Assembly (NCBI GenBank): GCA_002298885.1
Contig: DBMK01000229.1
Coordinates: 1 to 10,881 of the forward strand
Direction of reading: 5' to 3'
Origin: Anaerolineaceae bacterium UBA700
GTDB taxonomy: Bacteria > Chloroflexota > Anaerolineae > Anaerolineales > Anaerolineaceae
Length of the DNA: 10,881 nucleotides
Shown: positions 33 through 10,246 of the stretch, in pieces
Position numbering within the stretch: position 1 is the stretch's first letter
Layout of the letters: each line of letters begins with the position of its first letter
Made by a program: the position numbers and the translations under genes
Notes under the pieces: generated by a model
The model's input: only the letters and a program-made list of their open reading frames with translations
The model's database searches: none
What the model was told of the DNA's origin: nothing

Positions 33-3000
33 TTACGGTGTTATTTTGAAGATAGCCCCTGTCGAAGTCCCTTGCACATCTGGGAAATAGAACTGGTAGG
101 CGTGAGCGGGTAGAAGGCGGAATTCGCCTGCCTGAAGCGGGGTGAGCTGATAAGTAAGCTGGTAGGTGCCGGCGGGCAGGGTCGAGGCTACCCAGCGGAT
201 GTGGTCGTCGTACAGAGTCGGCGAGCCGAAGAACCAGCCGCCCCAGCCATTCCCGAACGGATTGCTTGAATCGAAAATAGGGAGCACATCGGGGGTCACC
301 GGCTGGGGGCTGGTCTTTAAAGTCAGGTCGACGATCTCAGCGCCAGCGGGGATGAAGTCCTCCACTACAACCGAATACATCGGATGGGGCACGGTAACGG
401 TCAGCCGCACGAGCAGAGTCGGGTTGGCTACCGCAAGGCTCACGCTGCTGACCGGCTGGCAGTCGACCTTGCGGCAGTCTTGCCCTGCGGCATAGTACGC
501 CCGTGTAATGGAAAGGCCCTGGTCAAGCGCCGGCGCCGTTTCAACCGGGCGGTCCACCTGCAGGAAGGCCCGGTAATACAGGCGTCCATCCCCAGCCTCG
601 TGGGTCAGCTTCAAAGCATTCGGCGCATCCGGGCTTAGAGAGCTGAGCGGAACTCTGGCTTCAACCGGGGTCAGCGCGTTGGCGCCTCCCGCCTGCCCAT
701 TGAGCAAAGGCGAACCATTAAGGGTCGCCGAAAAAGCAAAGCTGGCCTGCAGGTCCCCGGTGCCCTGCAGCGTGTCTGCAAGAGCCAGTAAGATCCACGC
801 CGATTCGAAGCTCGAATCCCAGCCGCCGGTGAAACGCCGGTGGGCCACCAGGTTTCGCACGCCGTCTGCAAGCAGAGGTGAGGCCGGGTCGAAGTGAGCC
901 AGTGCAGTCAGCACCACTGCAGTTGTAAAGTTGGCCGAGGCGTAATTCACCTGGGCGTTATCGGCGCTCGTCTCCCAATATGCTCCGCTGGAAGAACGTA
1001 AGGCATGGGTAGAAAGGTCAGAAAGGATCTCCCTGGCGCGGGGATCTCCCGCTTTTTTGGCGTCCAGCGTCATGGCCAGCAGGGCTTTCGCCCATGGCGA
1101 AAGGCGATTCCAGACGGCGTACAGGCCTCCGGCATCCTGGACCGAGCTTCCAGAGACTTGAAGCGCATAGACTTCGAAAGACAGGCGGTCCAGCATCCAA
1201 TCCTTGCTGTCCTTGGCTGGCGCAATCAACCCGGCCTGGACGTAGGTCTGAGCCTTGGAAATTACCCCGGCATCGACGAACAAGCCGGCCTTTACGGCAC
1301 GCGCCAATCCGAACAGCACGTAAGCCGTCAGGTAAGTATCGCTGTCCTCTCCAGAAGCCCAACCCCAACCTCCATCCTTATTTTGAATATCCAGGATGGA
1401 TTGCAACCCGGTTTGAATTTCGGCTTGAAGCTGTTCTTTAAGGTTTGGCTGGTTAAGCCCCAGGTCCTGCAGGATGCGCAGCGTTTCCAGGTTGGGCAGC
1501 AGGCGCGAGAGCACCGGTTCCGTAAAGTCACCGGGGAATGCGTCCATCGCCTTCAAGCCATCCAAAATGGCCGCTGCCAGCGACGGGGCGGCCTCTACTC
1601 GCAGCTCGCCGCCGGTGGGGGTGAAGGAGCGCGGGATGCTGACTACCTCGAGCTGCTCGCCTGCCTCGGAAAGGATGCCGCTGGTGCCGTAGGTCTGGGG
1701 CGAGCTGTAAACCTCCACCGGGATCGATCCGAGCGCCGGCCGGGATGCATCCTGCAGATCGTTGGCGCGGGCAGAGAAGAGCAAATCGGCCTTGGCTGTA
1801 TCCTGAACCTTGACCCACCAGCTCACGCGCTGACGGCCGTTTGCTTGTACGTTCACCTTCTGATTGGCCTGTGCCGGATCATCCAGGTCCAGGCCACTGG
1901 CCTGGATCGAGACGTCCACGTTCAGCGCCTGGGCCGTATTATTATTGACCATGGCTGCCAGCTCGACGTGGTCGCCGGCCACCAAAAAACGCGGGGTCAA
2001 CGGGCGGATCAGCAAGTCTTTCGTGACCACAACCTCCTTCACCGCCTCGCCAACGCGCGAATCCTGGCTCAGGCCGCGCACGGTCACCACCCAGGTCGTG
2101 AGGTTATCCGGCAGCTTGAGCGAGACTTCGGCTGCTCCGTTGGCATCCGTGAGGATATCGCCGTTCCAGTAAGCCGTATCCTGGAAGTTCTGGCGTACCG
2201 AAGGCGGCGCTGCCAGTCCGCCACCTCCGCCTCCGCGGCCTCCCGGCTCTTGAACAGCCAGCCGCCTACCGGATGCGCTTAATGACAGGCTGCTGGACAC
2301 GCCCAGGGGCTGCGGATCGTAGAAAGCCTTACGGATATCGGGCGCATTGGGGTCCGCCAGCGCCAGTACGGCTTTATCCACGACACTCAGCGAAAATTCA
2401 CCCTGGACCGGCTTCCCCTGGCTGTCTTTGACCAGGATGGAGAATTTCACGTCACCGGACGGCTGAACTTGAGCCGGTTGGGGCGTGAGGTCCACCTGGA
2501 GGATCTCAGCATCCGGCTTGACTTTTAGCTCGACGTAGCCAACCCGGAAATCGGGCTGCTGGTTCGCATTTTTCCCCAACAGGATCACCGAAACGTACAC
2601 GTTCGGAGCGTCTTCAGCGCTCAGCGGCAGGTCGAGCGCATAACTCGACCCGGAAACGGTGGTCACGATCGAACGCATTACCTTTCCCCGCTCCACGGTG
2701 ATCAGGGCCAGCGCAGCATCGCCCAACGGGTTTGGAATGAAGATCCTGGCTTTCGCCCCGGCGGTATATTCATCTGCATCGGCAGTCAGGGGAATCTGCT
2801 GGTTCGGCAGCGCCGGCCAGGTTGTGCTGCCCTCTCCCCCGGCCCAAAATAAAACCTGGGTATGGGCCGTCTGGCCCTGGGCCGACTTTTCGCGCACGTC
2901 AACCAGGTAGGTGCCGGCTGAGGGCGGGGTGAAGGCAATACGCGCCTGGCCCTGGGCGTCGGTCTGGAAATCCGTGCTGCCTACGTCGCTGTACTCGACC

Positions 3001-6000
3001 AGCATTAACGGAAGGCTGGATGCTGGAGTCCAATCCGGGTTATCCTTCCAGGTTGCCTTTTTGAATGCAGCAGTCAACGACTGGTTCCCGTATGGTTTAG
3101 CCTGCCAATCGACGGTCTGGACCGAAAAGCCAGCTTCCTGCTTGGCCTGGCCGCTCCACGCTTCCGGCTTGACGCCGATGTAGAAATTTGCTGGATGCAG
3201 GGTCATTTGGGCGTGGGCGCTGACCGGGAAATCGCCCTGGCCGTTCAGATCTACGTTCAGTTGGAGCTGCTGGATGTTGCCGGGAGAGACACTTTGCAGC
3301 ATATCCGCCGGGACTTTGATCATCGCCGTCCCATCGGTGCCAATCGTGCCCTGGCCGTTGGCGACAAATTTTCCCATACCCTGGTCGAGCGAATACAACA
3401 GCGGGGCAAAACTCTGTGGATCGAACGTGCCCGTCTGGTAAAGCCCCGGGATATTGAAATACGAGCGGCTGCTGGTCAAGGTCCAGTTGAAGCTCAGGTT
3501 ATCCGCCGGCGCGCCGAAGAAATACAGCGCTTTTACGGTTGCCGTCATGTCCTCGGTCACGTTCTGTTCGGCCTTGCTGAATGCCACGCTCAGGTCGATC
3601 TCCGGCTTGCGGTAATCCGCCACCTGGAAGGGCAGGTAGCTCCCGGTCACCTCTTCGACTTCCATATGGTAGAACCCGGGTTGGGCAGCCGCGGGCAGAG
3701 TGTAGCTGGCGCTCCCGGCGCCGAAATCTGACAAGTTGACGGGAACCTTAGCCAGCAAGGGCTGCTCGCCGCTGGCCGGAGAGTAATCCCCAAATATTCT
3801 GATTGTGAGCTTCTTAAGGCTAGAGAGCGAATAGCGGCCGTTGTACTCCTGGCGCAGCACGGCGCGCAGGTCAATCGTCTGCCCAGGGCGGTAAATTGGC
3901 CTATCGGTATACAGGTACACAAACGGCTGGTTCCCCGAAGTTGTGGTGGAAAGGCCAAATTCCCATGCCCCCAATCCGCTGTTCCAGGTGGAGAGGCTCA
4001 GCGAAAAATTGGGGTCTCCCGGTTTGCCGCTTACTGCATAGACCGGGGCGTACGGATCGCTGCGGGTCGGGGTCGACAGGCTAGCGGTGCCGTTGCCATC
4101 CGTCGTCACCTCTCCCAAACTGGCCAGCGCGCCCTTGTTGTCCTGGTAAAGGCTAATTTTTGCTCCGGAAAGAGGCTTGTTCGAATCGAGGCTGACGGCC
4201 CACACGAAGACCTCGTTTGCGCTGACTTTCAGTGTCAACTGGATATTACTTACCACCATTAGCAATGAAGCTGGCGCCGGAGTTGGTTTCGGCAGGTCGG
4301 GGGATTGAATAACGTAATAATAGAGCCCCGGTTTCAGGCCGCTACCATCCGGGGTGATGGGTATTTCTACCGGAGCGTTTTTATCCGGCGGCAGGTCGAT
4401 GGTCTTGCTGAAACTGGAGAGCTGCGGCCCCTGGAATTTCTGTTGGCGGTCGAAAGCGGCGATATTGGCGGCTGTGACGAAATCCTCCAGGCTCAGGCCG
4501 GCGTATCTGACCGTCAGGTTCTTTACATTGGCTGCCTGAGCCGGCAGGGCGGTATCGTTGGGGGTAAGGAAAACACTGCCGGTAAAACTGTCGGGGATGT
4601 TGATATTCAAGCTGGGCTGGAGCGCGCCGGTCTTGAACTTAAAAACATACGGAGCTTTGAGTTTTTGGCCCCAGTTGTCCGCCAGATCTTCGCTGATGGT
4701 AAGGGTGTAATCAGCGCTGGCTGCGAACGTGCCTGAAAGATAGACGTCCGTTCCCTCGGAGCCGGCGTTAGCGTTGAAAACATCTACAGCCGGGTCAAAA
4801 GAGAAGAATCTTTCCAAATTGCGTGTGTTTGCCAGGGGTGCGGTGAAATAGAAATGCAGTGAAGCGAAACCATTGGTGATACGCAGCGGCTGCCCGGCGG
4901 CCAGGTCCACCCCGGCAACGCCCATCGGTGCCACCGTGGTCAGTTTGGCCGAATAATCCTTTCCCAGGGGGGTGCCCCCGCTGGATTGAGCCTTTCCGGA
5001 CAGGGTAAGGGTGTAATCGGCGGCTCGGCGCAGCAGGGCATCCGGTTTGAAGGTCATCACCGCGCCCTGCTCGTTCCAGCTCGTCTTGCCCGGCACTGGG
5101 CTGCCGTCCTGATCGAGGAGAGAGAAGTTCTGGGCGACACTGGCCGGGTCCATCGCCTGGTCGAAGGTCAGCACAACCGGCGCATCCAGATAGACGCGGC
5201 TCGTCTCTGCCGGCGTTACCTGCATCAGCGAAGGTTTGCGGGTGGTGAAGGACCAATCCGGCAGGGAGGCCGCCGCCCACCCAATACCGTCGGTGCTTAC
5301 CAGGTCCTTGTTCAAATTCACGGAGTACTTGACGCCCCCAGCTAGTCCGGGAGCGGGATAAAAAATGTAGGTGCTGGTATTCAGCCACTCGCCGCGGCCC
5401 TTGGCGGACGGCTCCAGGCTGAACGCCGCCGGAGCCTGCGTGGCGTCTCCGCCCAGGGGGACGATCGGCCGGTTGAAGGTCACCAACACGGCATCGCCCG
5501 GGCCGACCGAGCTTGCGTCCGGCAGAGGCAGGCGTTCCACCGCCTGGAATCCGGCTGCCGTGTGAAAAGAAATGTCTACCGGCGCGCTCAAAGGCAAACC
5601 TTTGGCCGCCCGCGCCTTGGTCGACAGGGTAACCGTCAAGGAAGTATCCTTGGGCAGCGGCTGGTCGGGGGTGAAGCTGACCGAATAATCATTCAGCCAT
5701 TTGAAGCTGCCTGCAACGGGCGGTTGAGCCTGCAGCGCAGCTTCGACGGTTCCCTTTTCCATAGCCTGGTTGAAATAGAAGATAAAGGGCTGCTTGAGCC
5801 CGATTTCACTTTCCGGTAGGGGAGCCGATTCCACCAGGGCGGGCGGCAGGTTCACCGGAAGTTGGGTAGGCTGCGGCGGGAACGTGGGCGCTGGTGTGTC
5901 TGTAGGCAGGGCAGGCGGGGTTTGCGTCGGCACGCCGGGCACGGTTACATTGCAGGCCAGGCCGGTCAGCACGACGATCAAAGTCAAAACCGAAAGCAGC

Positions 6001-6041
6001 CGGAAGCCCCGGCGCCTCGAGGTGGCGGGATATTCAATCAT
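33..6041 (-). CDS. Alpha-2-macroglobulin-like lipoprotein without thioester
   Basis: Giant exported protein of the bacterial alpha-2-macroglobulin family, which traps proteases that cleave a bait region. Numbering here is from an upstream ATG at 6059. The preferred start is residue 7 (6041), because AAAGGAAG lies 7 nt before it and the upstream ATG has no Shine-Dalgarno, giving about 2002 aa. RRR plus a hydrophobic stretch (21-35) and Cys36 form a lipoprotein signal, although the lipobox (GLAC) is imperfect; a Pro/Thr linker follows. Next come about four Ig-like Big_5-type domains (76-478), the MG2 signature TDRPIYRPGQ (718-727), a bait-region domain (about 1090-1285), the A2M domain starting NFQDTAYWN (1291), a helical thioester-type domain (about 1485-1765, with GGWGWASGEDSDTYLTAY) and a C-terminal MG-like domain. 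The thioester Cys and Gln are replaced (F1512, P1515). The family call is firm; protease trapping is inferred. Confidence 0.93.
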   Translation of the reverse strand: MIEYPATSRRRGFRLLSVLTLIVVLTGLACNVTVPGVPTQTPPALPTDTPAPTFPPQPTQLPVNLPPALVESAPLPESEIGLKQPFIFYFNQAMEKGTVEAALQAQPPVAGSFKWLNDYSVSFTPDQPLPKDTSLTVTLSTKARAAKGLPLSAPVDISFHTAAGFQAVERLPLPDASSVGPGDAVLVTFNRPIVPLGGDATQAPAAFSLEPSAKGRGEWLNTSTYIFYPAPGLAGGVKYSVNLNKDLVSTDGIGWAAASLPDWSFTTRKPSLMQVTPAETSRVYLDAPVVLTFDQAMDPASVAQNFSLLDQDGSPVPGKTSWNEQGAVMTFKPDALLRRAADYTLTLSGKAQSSGGTPLGKDYSAKLTTVAPMGVAGVDLAAGQPLRITNGFASLHFYFTAPLANTRNLERFFSFDPAVDVFNANAGSEGTDVYLSGTFAASADYTLTISEDLADNWGQKLKAPYVFKFKTGALQPSLNINIPDSFTGSVFLTPNDTALPAQAANVKNLTVRYAGLSLEDFVTAANIAAFDRQQKFQGPQLSSFSKTIDLPPDKNAPVEIPITPDGSGLKPGLYYYVIQSPDLPKPTPAPASLLMVVSNIQLTLKVSANEVFVWAVSLDSNKPLSGAKISLYQDNKGALASLGEVTTDGNGTASLSTPTRSDPYAPVYAVSGKPGDPNFSLSLSTWNSGLGAWEFGLSTTTSGNQPFVYLYTDRPIYRPGQTIDLRAVLRQEYNGRYSLSSLKKLTIRIFGDYSPASGEQPLLAKVPVNLSDFGAGSASYTLPAAAQPGFYHMEVEEVTGSYLPFQVADYRKPEIDLSVAFSKAEQNVTEDMTATVKALYFFGAPADNLSFNWTLTSSRSYFNIPGLYQTGTFDPQSFAPLLYSLDQGMGKFVANGQGTIGTDGTAMIKVPADMLQSVSPGNIQQLQLNVDLNGQGDFPVSAHAQMTLHPANFYIGVKPEAWSGQAKQEAGFSVQTVDWQAKPYGNQSLTAAFKKATWKDNPDWTPASSLPLMLVEYSDVGSTDFQTDAQGQARIAFTPPSAGTYLVDVREKSAQGQTAHTQVLFWAGGEGSTTWPALPNQQIPLTADADEYTAGAKARIFIPNPLGDAALALITVERGKVMRSIVTTVSGSSYALDLPLSAEDAPNVYVSVILLGKNANQQPDFRVGYVELKVKPDAEILQVDLTPQPAQVQPSGDVKFSILVKDSQGKPVQGEFSLSVVDKAVLALADPNAPDIRKAFYDPQPLGVSSSLSLSASGRRLAVQEPGGRGGGGGGLAAPPSVRQNFQDTAYWNGDILTDANGAAEVSLKLPDNLTTWVVTVRGLSQDSRVGEAVKEVVVTKDLLIRPLTPRFLVAGDHVELAAMVNNNTAQALNVDVSIQASGLDLDDPAQANQKVNVQANGRQRVSWWVKVQDTAKADLLFSARANDLQDASRPALGSIPVEVYSSPQTYGTSGILSEAGEQLEVVSIPRSFTPTGGELRVEAAPSLAAAILDGLKAMDAFPGDFTEPVLSRLLPNLETLRILQDLGLNQPNLKEQLQAEIQTGLQSILDIQNKDGGWGWASGEDSDTYLTAYVLFGLARAVKAGLFVDAGVISKAQTYVQAGLIAPAKDSKDWMLDRLSFEVYALQVSGSSVQDAGGLYAVWNRLSPWAKALLAMTLDAKKAGDPRAREILSDLSTHALRSSSGAYWETSADNAQVNYASANFTTAVVLTALAHFDPASPLLADGVRNLVAHRRFTGGWDSSFESAWILLALADTLQGTGDLQASFAFSATLNGSPLLNGQAGGANALTPVEARVPLSSLSPDAPNALKLTHEAGDGRLYYRAFLQVDRPVETAPALDQGLSITRAYYAAGQDCRKVDCQPVSSVSLAVANPTLLVRLTVTVPHPMYSVVVEDFIPAGAEIVDLTLKTSPQPVTPDVLPIFDSSNPFGNGWGGWFFGSPTLYDDHIRWVASTLPAGTYQLTYQLTPLQAGEFRLLPAHAYQFYFPDVQGTSTGAIFKITP

Positions 6042-6048
6042 CAGGATG

Positions 6049-6056
6049 CTTCCTTT
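6049..6056 (-). promoter_or_regulatory. Shine-Dalgarno deciding the macroglobulin start
   Basis: The minus strand reads AAAGGAAG, then 7 nt, then ATG at 6041. The more upstream in-frame ATG at 6059 is preceded by CCGCAGTTATTCAT, which has no purine-rich match. The 6041 start is therefore preferred. It also leaves a more typical signal-peptide n-region (IEYPATSRRR). Confidence 0.7.
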
Positions 6057-6081
6057 CATATGAATAACTGCGGACGATTTG

Positions 6082-6184: not shown

Positions 6185-7117
6185 TCAGGCCTTGTTAACG
6201 CCGCGCAGGCGGGGATCGAGGGCGTCACGCAGGCCGTCGCCGATCAGGTTGAACGAAAGCACGGTCAGCATGATTGCCAGGCCCGGGAAGAAGACCAGGT
6301 GGGGCGCATTGAAGACGCTCTCCGCTTCGGAGCCCAACATCAGGCCCCATTCGGGCGTGGGCGGCTGGGCTCCGAGACCGAGGAAGCTCAGGGCGGCCGC
6401 ATTCAAAATGGCCGAGGCAATCCCCAGCGTCCCCTGCACGATCAAGGGCGTGAGGGCATTGGGCAAAATGCGGGTAAATATCAGGCGCAGGTTGCTGGCG
6501 CCGAGTGCCCGGGATGCGTCAACGTATTCCAGGTTTTTTACCGCCAGCACGCTGCTGCGCACGACGCGGGCGTAAATCGGGATCGAAACGATGCCGATTG
6601 CCAGAAGCGCATTGTACAGCCCGGGACCCAGCACGGATACGATGGCGATCGCCAGCAGCAGGCTGGGAAATGCCATGAGGATATCCATGGCACGCATGAC
6701 CAGCGTATCCACCCATCCGCCCCAGAAACCGCTGACGGCGCCGATGATTCCACCCAAAATGATGGCGAAGGAGATGGTCAGGATGCCGATCTGCAAAGAA
6801 AGCTGCGATCCGTACAATACGCGTGAAAACAGGTCGCGATTGTTGCTGTCGATACCCATAATGTGTTCGGGCTGGTCTGCCGGGCAGCCCAAAATGTGAA
6901 TGCAAGGGCCTGAGCGCCGTTTAACATTTTCCAGGGGCACTGTAGGGTCATACGGAGCGATCACCGGTGAGAAAATGGCAATCAGCAGCAGGACAGTGAA
7001 AATGGCCAGCCCCACCTGCGCTGAGCGGTGGTGGATGAAGCGGCGCAGTGCCTCTACGGTCGGCGATTGGCGCGCCAGGATTGGTTCGTTGGCAAGGACA
7101 GGAACATCGATATTCAT
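6185..7117 (-). CDS. ABC importer permease, DppC/OppC type
   Basis: Inner-membrane permease of a peptide/nickel-type ABC importer (310 aa, normal for the family), pairing with the neighbouring DppB-like subunit to form the channel. An N-terminal OppC_N-like region with TM1 (about 34-54) is followed by an extracytoplasmic loop ending in MGIDSNNRDLFSRVLYG, the usual GTDxxGRD region in altered form. Five further membrane segments follow (about 105-130, 140-163, 165-188, 225-248, 274-295). The ATPase-docking EAA loop is clear: YVDASRALGASNLRLIFTRI (198-217), then LPNALTPL. The loop before it has a Cys pair (C72, C78). The ATG lies 6 nt after the upstream stop with only a weak GGAA Shine-Dalgarno, which suggests translational coupling. 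The substrate cannot be deduced from the permease; the dppC symbol is withheld for that reason. Confidence 0.93.
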   Translation of the reverse strand: MNIDVPVLANEPILARQSPTVEALRRFIHHRSAQVGLAIFTVLLLIAIFSPVIAPYDPTVPLENVKRRSGPCIHILGCPADQPEHIMGIDSNNRDLFSRVLYGSQLSLQIGILTISFAIILGGIIGAVSGFWGGWVDTLVMRAMDILMAFPSLLLAIAIVSVLGPGLYNALLAIGIVSIPIYARVVRSSVLAVKNLEYVDASRALGASNLRLIFTRILPNALTPLIVQGTLGIASAILNAAALSFLGLGAQPPTPEWGLMLGSEAESVFNAPHLVFFPGLAIMLTVLSFNLIGDGLRDALDPRLRGVNKA

Positions 7118-7123
7118 AAAGGG

Positions 7124-8200
7124 TTATTCCAATCGAATGCGGGGGTCAAGGTAGGCGTAGGACAGGTCGACGATCAAGTTTGCCAGCACGAAAATGACGG
7201 CAATAAAGACCACGAACCCCTGCACTACCGGATAATCGCGGGATAAAATGGCATTAACAAGCGCCGTCCCCATGCCGGGCAGCGTAAAAACAGTTTCGGT
7301 GAGAACAGCGCCGGATAATAACGCCCCCGTTTCCAATCCGATCACGGTCACGATGGGGATCAGGGCGTTGCGCAGGGCGTGCTTGGTAATCACGCGGGTC
7401 TTAACCAGACCTTTGGCCCGCGCCGTGCGGATGTAATCCTGGCCCAGCACGTCCAACAGACTGGAGCGGGTCATGCGGGCGATGGTTGCCATCGGAATTG
7501 TGCCCACTGCAAATGAGGGCAGGATCAAATGCCACAGGGCATCTTTCAGGACCGCAAAGTTGCCGGTCAGGATACTGTTCAAGACCACCGAATTCGACAT
7601 GAAGTTGACTGCAAACTTGGAAATTCCGGTCAGGTCCTGCAGGTTCCACACGGTTGCCAGAGGGGTTAGAGAAAGACCCGGGGTCAAACGCCCGGAAGGC
7701 GGGATGAATAACGGCGTGCCTTTAAAGACGAGGGAGAACACGTAAGCCAGCATCAACCCTAGCCAGAAAACGGGCATCGAAACGCCGATGTTTGCCAATA
7801 CCATGGTCAGGGTATCGATGATCGTATTACGGCGAAGCGCCGAAATTAACCCCAGCAATATTCCCACAATTGTCGAGAAAAGCATGGCCCCGAGCGTCAG
7901 CTCGAATGTCATCGGGAGCCGTTCGGAAATATAATCCAGAACCGGGCGATGGTATTGGATCGAATCGCCGAAATTCCCCTGTAAAACCTGCTGGATGTAA
8001 CGGCCAAATTGGACCATGATATTATCATTCAAGCCGAATCGTTCCCTGAACTGGGCGCATTGGGCCTGGGTTGCTTTCTCACCCATCATGGCAATGCAGG
8101 GATCGGCGGGGATGGCGCGCGCAATGACGAATGTTACCAGCAGGATGCCGATTAAAACCGGGACAATCAGTAAAAGGCGGCGGATCGTAAACTGGAGCAT
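7124..8200 (-). CDS. ABC importer permease, DppB/OppB type
   Basis: First permease subunit of the same importer (358 aa, slightly longer than the roughly 340 aa of DppB). The N-terminus MLQFTIRRLLLIVPVLIGI is the standard DppB opening and contains TM1 (8-29). An extracytoplasmic domain of about 70 residues with C35 and C48 follows, including FGLNDNIMVQFGRYI and GNFGDSI. Five more membrane segments lie at about 98-121, 131-158, 220-243, 280-302 and 325-347. The EAA loop is DYIRTARAKGLVKTRV, then HALRNALIP (255-283). The extra length is a loop of about 50 residues between TM3 and TM4 (about 165-218). The start ATG has AAGGAA 3 nt upstream. It is co-directional with the binding protein 211 nt upstream and overlaps nothing. 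Confidence 0.93.
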   Translation of the reverse strand: MLQFTIRRLLLIVPVLIGILLVTFVIARAIPADPCIAMMGEKATQAQCAQFRERFGLNDNIMVQFGRYIQQVLQGNFGDSIQYHRPVLDYISERLPMTFELTLGAMLFSTIVGILLGLISALRRNTIIDTLTMVLANIGVSMPVFWLGLMLAYVFSLVFKGTPLFIPPSGRLTPGLSLTPLATVWNLQDLTGISKFAVNFMSNSVVLNSILTGNFAVLKDALWHLILPSFAVGTIPMATIARMTRSSLLDVLGQDYIRTARAKGLVKTRVITKHALRNALIPIVTVIGLETGALLSGAVLTETVFTLPGMGTALVNAILSRDYPVVQGFVVFIAVIFVLANLIVDLSYAYLDPRIRLE

Positions 8201-8411: not shown

Positions 8412-10103
8412 TCACGGAGTAGCCGTCGGCGCCGGCGGGGGATTCAGCAAACCCATCCAGCCACCGAAGTATTCGAAGACGCCGGTGTTACCCTTGTGGT
8501 TGGGGTTCTTCGCGTCCCACATAGCAGAATAGGTAGCGAAGACGTCGGCAGCGGTGAACGGCGTGCCGTCCGACCACTTCACATTCTGGCGCAGGTGGAA
8601 GGTGTATTGGGTGGCATCGGCGTTGACGTCGTAGCTGGTCGCCAGGGCCGGCTCAGTCTGAGTGGTGCCGTATTTGAACTTGAGCAGCGGCTCATTGACA
8701 ACCATGCAGGCATTGATCGTCTCACCGTCGGTTTCGTCGCCGCACCACAGGCTGATCGGCTCACCGGACTGCAGCCAGACGAGCTGGCCGGAATCGGTCT
8801 GCATGAAGGGGAAGTTCTGGTTGTAGATGCTGATGACCACGTTCTTGACGCTGGCCTTGAAGGCATCCGCCTGGCCGCCGTGGGCAACGGGCACCATCGG
8901 GACGTGCTGCAGCAGCAGCTTGTTGACTTCGTCGTAAGCCGCCTGGCGTACTTTCGGATCACCGGTTGTGGCGCCTTTGTCGATGGCGGCAGTGATGTCA
9001 GGATACGGCGTGCCGAAGATCTTGCTAGCTTTGCCGAAGTGGTAATCGAACCAGTCGGTGGCATCCGGGTAATCCTCGCCCCATCCGAGCAGGAAGAAGG
9101 TCAGGTTGCCCTTGCCCGAATTTCCGATCAAAGTGCCGGATTCCTGCTGATCCAGTTTTACTTTCACGCCGATAGTCGCTAACTGAGCCTGGACATCCTG
9201 CGCAATCTGGTCGGGGACGGGGGCATAGCCACGGGCATTGGTACGGAAGGAGAACGGGATCTCCTGGTTGAAATCGAACTTCGCATCCGTCAGCATTTGT
9301 TTGGCTTTGGCAGGGTCATAAACGACGCCTGCCAGACCATCCGTGTAACCCGGTTTCAGGCCTGGATACAGGAACTGGTCTGCAACGGTGGAGCCTTCGG
9401 GGAAGAAGTTCTTGACGATGCGCTGTTTATCGATCGCCATGGCGAAGGCCTGGCGTACCGTTTCGTTGTCGAAGGGCGGCTTGGTATTGTTCATACCGAA
9501 GTAAAGTGTGTTGAGGGCCACGATCGGGACCAGCGACAAGGTCTTGTCGTTTTCAATGGTCTTCATATCCTCCGGCCCTACGAGCTCGATAGCGTCGGCA
9601 TTGCCGGACTGGAGCTCGAGCAAGCGCTGGGCAGACTTGGCGGACCATTTGAAGATCAAGGTCTTTACGGAAACGTTGCCGCCCCACCAATTCGGATTGG
9701 CAGTAAAGGTGATATGATCGCCTTTGACCCATTCCTTCATGATGTACGGGCCGGTTCCAATCGGGGCAGAGCCGATTTTAGCCGAGTCGCCACCGGTGGA
9801 ATCGAGCAGCGCCTTGGGCAGGATCTCAAATGTAGCAAACGCAGCCTGGGCGGGCACAGCCGGGTCCGGATTGCAGGTGGTGATGACGAACGTGTTGGCG
9901 TCTGGCGCTTCAATGGATTTGAGCGCGCCGCCATAATTGCAGTCCGGGGCTGCTAATTTCAGCGGGTAGGACACTGCAGGAGTGGCTGGGGGTGTGGTGG
10001 GGACTGCTGTGGGCGCAGTGGTGGCGGCTGCCTGGCATGCAGACAATACCAGGCTGAACATCAATAGAGCCGCGAAAAGCGTATAAAACTTATTTTGTTT
10101 CAC
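8412..10103 (-). CDS. Substrate-binding lipoprotein, SBP_bac_5 family, circularly permuted
   Basis: Extracytoplasmic solute receptor of the DppA/OppA/NikA family (563 aa), lipid-anchored. It starts at GTG with AAAGGAGG 5 nt upstream. Residues 1-23 form a lipoprotein signal (LVLSAC, Cys23), followed by a Thr/Pro/Ala linker (24-45). The family landmarks occur in an unusual order. Residues 61-435 carry what is normally the middle and end: DANTFVIT, PIGTGPYIMKEW (114-125), NPNWWGG, VRQAFAMAIDKQRIV, the ligand-loop region DYPDATDWF and PMVPVAHGG. Residues 440-554 carry what is normally the beginning: LVWLQSGEPISL, NEPLLKFKYGTT, EPALATSYDV, YTFHLRQNVKWSDGTPFTAADV and NPNHKGNTGVFEYFGG. A short PPPAPTATP tail ends the protein. 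Two Cys pairs (55/77, 454/466) could form disulfides. It heads the importer operon. The ligand is unknown: peptide, nickel or a metal chelate are all possible. Confidence 0.92.
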   Translation of the reverse strand: MKQNKFYTLFAALLMFSLVLSACQAAATTAPTAVPTTPPATPAVSYPLKLAAPDCNYGGALKSIEAPDANTFVITTCNPDPAVPAQAAFATFEILPKALLDSTGGDSAKIGSAPIGTGPYIMKEWVKGDHITFTANPNWWGGNVSVKTLIFKWSAKSAQRLLELQSGNADAIELVGPEDMKTIENDKTLSLVPIVALNTLYFGMNNTKPPFDNETVRQAFAMAIDKQRIVKNFFPEGSTVADQFLYPGLKPGYTDGLAGVVYDPAKAKQMLTDAKFDFNQEIPFSFRTNARGYAPVPDQIAQDVQAQLATIGVKVKLDQQESGTLIGNSGKGNLTFFLLGWGEDYPDATDWFDYHFGKASKIFGTPYPDITAAIDKGATTGDPKVRQAAYDEVNKLLLQHVPMVPVAHGGQADAFKASVKNVVISIYNQNFPFMQTDSGQLVWLQSGEPISLWCGDETDGETINACMVVNEPLLKFKYGTTQTEPALATSYDVNADATQYTFHLRQNVKWSDGTPFTAADVFATYSAMWDAKNPNHKGNTGVFEYFGGWMGLLNPPPAPTATP

Positions 10104-10108
10104 GATCT

Positions 10109-10116
10109 CCTCCTTT
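10109..10116 (-). promoter_or_regulatory. Strong Shine-Dalgarno for the GTG start of the binding protein
   Basis: The minus strand reads AAAGGAGG, then AGATC, then GTG at 10103. The strength and 5-nt spacing fix the GTG as the start. The residues that follow form a proper lipoprotein signal (KQNK plus a hydrophobic core). Confidence 0.8.
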
Positions 10117-10218: not shown

Positions 10219-10246
10219 ATTATACGGTAATAATTACCAATGTCAA
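10219..10246 (-). promoter_or_regulatory. Consensus promoter of the importer operon
   Basis: The minus strand carries TTGACA (10246-10241), a 16-nt spacer and TATAAT (10224-10219): both hexamers are perfect, and only the spacer is one base short of the optimum. Transcription should start near 10212, giving a leader of about 108 nt before the GTG. The upstream flank (10250-10266) is A/T-rich and could serve as an UP element. Confidence 0.8.
10226..10238. promoter_or_regulatory. Palindromic operator candidate inside the promoter spacer
   Basis: GGTAAT-A-ATTACC is a perfect 13-bp inverted repeat around one central base, lying entirely between the -35 and -10 boxes of the importer promoter. A protein bound here would block RNA polymerase. 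The pattern matches the 7-1-7 layout of Fur-family boxes and most closely the Bacillus Zur consensus (TCGTAATNATTACGA). GntR- or MarR-type regulators are alternatives. No regulator gene is visible in the window. Confidence 0.5.

Follow-up and report, generated by a model that had tools for sequence, protein, structure and literature searches.

The window considered here, that is, the whole stretch of 10,881 nucleotides of contig DBMK01000229.1 from Anaerolineaceae bacterium UBA700 (assembly GCA_002298885.1), carries on its minus strand a gene for a lipid-anchored substrate-binding protein (SBP) whose two parts are encoded in circularly permuted order. The gene (8412..10103 (-)) starts with GTG at 10103, ends with a stop codon at 8414-8412 and is preceded by a Shine-Dalgarno sequence, AGGAGG, at 10109..10114 (-), all as described earlier by the sequence-only reading, an annotation made from the DNA letters without database searches. 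Its product of 563 amino acids was assigned by sequence inspection, Pfam, phmmer and profile hidden Markov model (HMM) comparisons. Pfam recognizes the SBP_bac_5 family (PF00496) in two stretches (4.1e-84, 283.2 bits against a curated cut-off of 32.4), residues 58-359 corresponding to profile positions 62-364; no other Pfam family is found in the protein at E values up to 0.1. The chain begins with a signal peptide (residues 1-22, 10038..10103 (-)), followed by Cys23 (10037-10035) of a lipobox, LSAC, recognized by eye at residues 20-23, as expected for a bacterial lipoprotein. Cys23 is kept in all 40 rows of an alignment (A1), and a crude lipobox motif was found in 66/93 permutants from loci and window when their N-terminal 75 residues were scanned, a count with which start choice and gene fusions interfere. 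An Ala/Thr/Pro-rich linker (residues 24-47, 9963..10034 (-)) follows, for which the AlphaFold predicted local distance difference test (pLDDT) is mostly low.

The order of the two parts differs from that of DppA. When compared by phmmer with PDB sequences, residues 61-444 match positions 152-542 of the DppA chain 5f1q_A and residues 440-551 match positions 30-147; thus the N-terminal part of DppA comes last in the encoded chain. Residues 57-438 (8790..9935 (-)) correspond to DppA mature residues ~120-507, the native C-terminal part, now placed first, while phmmer and HMM matches identify residues 439-553 (8445..8789 (-)) as the native N-terminal part (DppA mature ~1-119); a new C-terminal tail, NPPPAPTATP, forms residues 554-563 (8415..8444 (-)). 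According to the alignments and to a comparison of native ends, the old C-terminus is fused to the old N-terminus at approximately residues 438/439 (8787..8792 (-), ...FMQTDSG-QLVWLQ...), with at most a few residues between them. The new ends are in the loop after EYFGG, and the cut is placed by alignment at DppA mature residue ~119/120.

An HMM built from 50 native-order proteins gives the same picture: the encoded chain is matched first at profile positions 115-476 (326.7 bits) and then at positions 3-101 (90.7 bits), an inverted order for which the protein is called a variant, whereas after restoring the native order a single colinear domain is obtained (positions 3-476, 426.1 bits). The same test was applied to 213 permutants (209 distinct), namely 120 database proteins, 92 proteins from loci and the window protein, leaving out open reading frames (ORFs) from the loci shorter than 380 amino acids, proteins scoring below 15 bits in the N-half or below 60 bits in the C-half, and those whose C-half match covers fewer than 280 positions; the best single domain scores higher after re-ordering in 212 of them, with one tie and a median gain of 98.9 bits. 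The AlphaFold model is confident (pLDDT 91.1; predicted template modelling score 0.86) and shows the two-lobed fold of cluster C SBPs; this prediction supports a fold that is complete despite the permutation. The sequence-only reading had proposed a natural circular permutant, whose re-ordered chain should align better and be predicted to fold; on all these points, and in the positions that it gave to the cut and fusion sites, it proved right.

Two permease genes lie directly downstream, a linkage typical of Dpp/Opp-type ATP-binding cassette (ABC) importers: a DppB-like gene (7124..8200 (-), BPD_transp_1) and a DppC-like gene (6185..7117 (-), OppC_N and BPD_transp_1). Among the 80 genome loci kept for comparison (the best 80 of at least 568 confirmed relatives), a DppB-like ORF is found downstream in 74 and a DppC-like one in 73. 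The scoop loop of the window DppB-like protein contains Glu41 (8080-8078) and Lys42 (8077-8075); of the 80 permutant-linked DppB ORFs, taken from 80 loci and including 77 distinct sequences, 78 retain E41 and 77 have K or R at position 42. Two cysteines flank the scoop, Cys35 (8098-8096) and Cys48 (8059-8057), and this pair is present in 79/80 permutant-linked copies compared with 1/33 native-linked ones (L126), 24 of the latter being located beside DppA-like SBPs. In a DppB tree the 33 sampled permutant-linked copies form one clade (99) against the 33 native-linked copies, and therefore binding protein and permease were inherited together. The cysteine pair suggests that the two partners may also have changed together; shared ancestry alone could explain the fixed DppB differences.

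As for the ligand, Ser322 (9138..9140 (-)), a residue conserved in 91/93 permutants, replaces a Trp found in 27/27 native relatives, which presumably lines the DppA pocket, so that the binding site may differ from that of DppA. Relatives with PDB entries include binders of nickel, haem or sugars, as judged from molecule names and titles. Both observations would fit a permuted SBP for a non-peptide ligand, for instance a sugar, a metal chelate or a haem-like compound. We consider such a ligand possible, yet unlikely, since the charged residues for the two ligand ends are preserved: Arg291 (9231..9233 (-)) aligns with DppA R383 and Asp344 (9072..9074 (-)) with D436 (both in precursor numbering), they are kept in 92/93 and 93/93 permutants, respectively, and in 27/27 native relatives each, and in DppA R383 is reported to hold the carboxylate and D436 the amino group of the ligand, i.e. 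the two ends of a dipeptide (PMC12136057). The charges of the partner scoop, E41 and K42, are also kept; therefore the protein would be expected to bind both ends of a peptide-like ligand and to serve the adjacent permease.

Phylogenetic analyses, performed on re-ordered permutant sequences, point to a single origin. In a first tree of 88 rows the 38 permutants included, taken from 57 non-redundant ones, fall into a single clade with a Shimodaira-Hasegawa-like approximate likelihood ratio test (SH-aLRT) support of 100; in a second tree they are again one clade (18 of 40 rows, bootstrap/SH-aLRT 100/100). The clade arises from within the native DppA-like proteins and E. coli DppA branches outside it, indicating that the native order is ancestral; the sister group is weakly resolved (L118/L121/L124, at 81/78). 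These data support, at the sequence level, one permutation of a DppA-like ancestor, old and family-wide. A different possibility is that the C-terminal 115 residues came from another SBP gene and replaced a lost N-terminus; acquisition from another gene is a possibility raised for the permuted protein TpMglB-2 (PMC4990184), and no intermediate forms were found here, as such an origin would allow. This explanation appears improbable, since in 5f1q, the top PDB hit by sequence, one and the same DppA is matched by both halves, and a single native DppA-like subfamily gives the highest scores for both. Indeed, with the C-half all 27 DppA-like natives reach 196-283 bits, compared with 64-197 for 23 other natives, and with the N-half 25/27 reach 57-87 bits (the other two 16.6 and 32.0), compared with 17-45 for the others; the DppA-like natives had been fetched by a whole-profile match, mainly to the C-half, and the N-half score is thus the independent test. 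Both halves would then be closest to one and the same subfamily, which argues against a tail from another gene.

The permuted order is found in 120/120 listed homologues (the best 120 of 4056 passing the E-value threshold, with 7996 candidates scored) and in 80/80 kept loci, with identities ranging from 86% down to ~42%; one of the loci (L003) is from a genome titled 'complete genome'. Besides Chloroflexota, the 80 best loci include, as judged from record titles, six from actinobacteria, mostly Acidimicrobiia, and among the matches listed the family occurs in two phyla, Chloroflexota and Actinomycetota; Leptolinea sp. HRD-7 ('complete genome') and Ilumatobacter nonamiensis are among the carriers. 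A match spanning the junction is present in at least 37/301 sampled genomes in the phylum of G001 (38 matches, not counting one in G231 that is cut by its contig end), in at least 4/296 in the phylum of G003 and in at least 13/119 in the class of G003, all lower bounds, with at most 4 candidates scored per genome in the phylum samples and at most 11 in the class sample. Native-order and permuted copies are both present in 5/5 genomes searched with a family profile. At L017, from position 1442 onwards, a native-order SBP gene and its B and C permeases immediately precede a permutant that likewise has B and C permeases of its own.

Since independent genomes show the same order, a misassembled or chimeric contig joining the halves of a native gene wrongly, which the ~10.9 kb length of the contig might suggest, can be dismissed as exceedingly unlikely, the more so as the residues flanking the junction, the cysteines and the partner permease residues are conserved. 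A genuine rearrangement surviving only as a non-functional relic, for which nothing was found in favour, is just as remote given the long-term conservation of a single old clade with an open frame, ligand residues kept across 93 permutants, partner residues kept and permeases retained in 73-74/80 loci. The sequence-only reading, which had argued against a dead rearrangement, is borne out in this respect. Going beyond that reading, the event proves to be old and shared by a family found in two phyla.

The permutants also have cysteines of their own. Cys55 (9941-9939) and Cys77 (9875-9873), spanning 9873..9941 (-), are present in 80/93 and 92/93 permutants and in at most 1/27 native relatives each; a second pair, Cys454 (8744-8742) and Cys466 (8708-8706), spanning 8706..8744 (-), is found in 90/93 permutants each and in 1/27 and 3/27 natives. 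C55 belongs to the new N-terminal arm, which might therefore be held in place by a disulfide between C55 and C77.

We therefore favour, with a probability of nearly nine in ten, an SBP of a Dpp/Opp-type ABC importer working with the permeases of the next two genes, belonging to an old family that derives from one circular permutation of a DppA-like ancestor. The gene would have been duplicated in tandem, fused and then trimmed, or would have gone through an equivalent fission and fusion. The lipid anchor would have been relocated to the new N-terminal arm, pinned by the C55-C77 pair; it may also, as the sequence-only reading suggested, attach at a different face of the protein and alter docking. 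The protein would still act as a normal Venus-flytrap SBP, gripping a short peptide or peptide-like ligand at both ends through D344 and R291; the ligand would then be passed to the permease, whose scoop loop residues E41/K42 would pair with the same two residues, R291 and D344. Some observations weigh against this interpretation. The PPPAPTATP tail, which looks like a lipoprotein linker, is not accounted for by this scheme, and the exchange of Trp for Ser322 sets the protein apart from all 27 native relatives. No ATPase gene was recognized within the window, and a motif scan found a downstream ATPase in only 14/80 loci; a DppB-like ORF is missing in 6/80 loci, four of which end near the gene. 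Finally, Foldseek and VIA-align superpose chains sequentially, so that the placement of residues 439-553 relies on model confidence.

The new N-terminus is also a site of gene fusion. Extensions longer than 170 residues are found in 12/93 permutants, with sizes that may be overstated because the first start codon in the open frame was taken; eleven were scanned, the twelfth (L113) being the same gene as L029. Eight contain SBP_bac_3 (L023, L029, L036, L044, L067, L080, L114 and L130), that of L060 contains Peripla_BP_6 in two stretches, and that of L069 has no further Pfam match. The permutants with SBP_bac_3 or Peripla_BP_6 thus combine, in tandem within a single chain, binding proteins that belong to different classes. 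At L035 a fusion gene (2865-5672(+)) encodes a Ser/Thr kinase, a proline-rich stretch, one hydrophobic segment, recognized by eye, and a permuted domain. It is immediately followed by a 559-amino-acid permutant with permeases and is possibly a receptor kinase for the same ligand as this permutant. Such extensions are not unique to permutants, since 2/50 native-order proteins also exceed 170 residues, L085 with Peptidase_MA_2 and L103 without a further Pfam match; native L094, outside the order-test filters, has a long extension too, again without a further match.

Compared with E. coli DppA (1dpp, 8z1y/8z1z) and with HbpA/GbpA-like cluster C SBPs, the present protein differs in the order of its parts, permuted at ~119/120, in carrying the lipid anchor at a new N-terminus, in its extra cysteine pairs and in having Ser where native relatives have Trp. 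The DppA equivalog model NF043070 gives 188 bits in two stretches against a cut-off of 1005 (1178.1 for the E. coli DppA control), and among the NCBIfam models matched none is dedicated to a permuted protein, as judged by their descriptions. Database names of permutants are 'ABC transporter substrate-binding protein' or alike, nothing more specific; thus the whole topology is apparently unmarked in a very well-studied family.

The only other naturally permuted ABC binding protein noticed in the open-licence literature is TpMglB-2 (Tp0684) of Treponema pallidum, a lipid-anchored, glucose-binding protein classified as 'Type Ic / Cluster Bc', whose authors suggest a subclass of permuted proteins and raise tethering, as a speculation, as the driving force of the permutation (PMC4990184). 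Both proteins are naturally permuted, lipid-anchored ABC SBPs; TpMglB-2 has a cluster B (type I) fold and another cut, and its chain crosses the hinge a fourth time and contains a large insertion. Conversely, the present family is of cluster C, with SBP_bac_5 as its sole Pfam family and no sign of membership among the cluster B/type I glucose-galactose-binding proteins; its old ends are fused nearly without a linker, its two halves are nearest to a single subfamily, its linked permease shows a difference of its own, and there are fusions at the new N-terminus. Searches of the open-licence literature showed no permuted cluster C SBP, a result that falls short of proving absence. TpMglB-2 has in the present family its cluster C counterpart.

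A second permutation of SBP_bac_5 is found at L112 (3001-4992(-)) and L111 (2205-4181(+)), both in Chloroflexota genomes, with an order common to 120/120 listed homologues of L112 (P0121-P0240). This lineage also has a signal and lipobox-like start, and DppB/DppC-like genes adjoin both loci; it differs in the cut, located at DppA mature ~271/272 instead of ~119/120, and in its nearest native relatives. It is tempting, though still somewhat doubtful, to propose that permutation is recurrent and selected in anchored cluster C SBPs: Chloroflexota would have seen two or more permutations of SBP_bac_5 with differing cut sites, and in the lineage of the window the anchor would have been re-sited, the scoop stapled by a disulfide and an N-terminal port opened for SBP_bac_3, Peripla_BP_6 and a transmembrane Ser/Thr kinase. 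The family offers a natural experiment on the question posed by TpMglB-2, i.e. why anchored SBPs become permuted and whether moving the anchor alters docking, and the two independent cut sites mark positions at which new termini are compatible with a cluster C protein, useful for biosensor design.

Among the remaining features of the window, a gene at 33-6059 (-) encodes a bacterial alpha-2-macroglobulin of 2008 amino acids with Big_5 domains, in which the CxEQ thioester motif is absent; a conserved linkage between permutant and alpha-2-macroglobulin was sought in the fetched loci and seen only at L032 and L135. Upstream of the SBP gene there is a PAP2 gene in divergent orientation. A promoter-like TTGACA-16-TATAAT, recognized by eye at 10219..10246 (-), has a spacer with the inverted repeat GGTAAT-T-ATTACC; this repeat, located ahead of the divergent PAP2 gene, is a possible operator.
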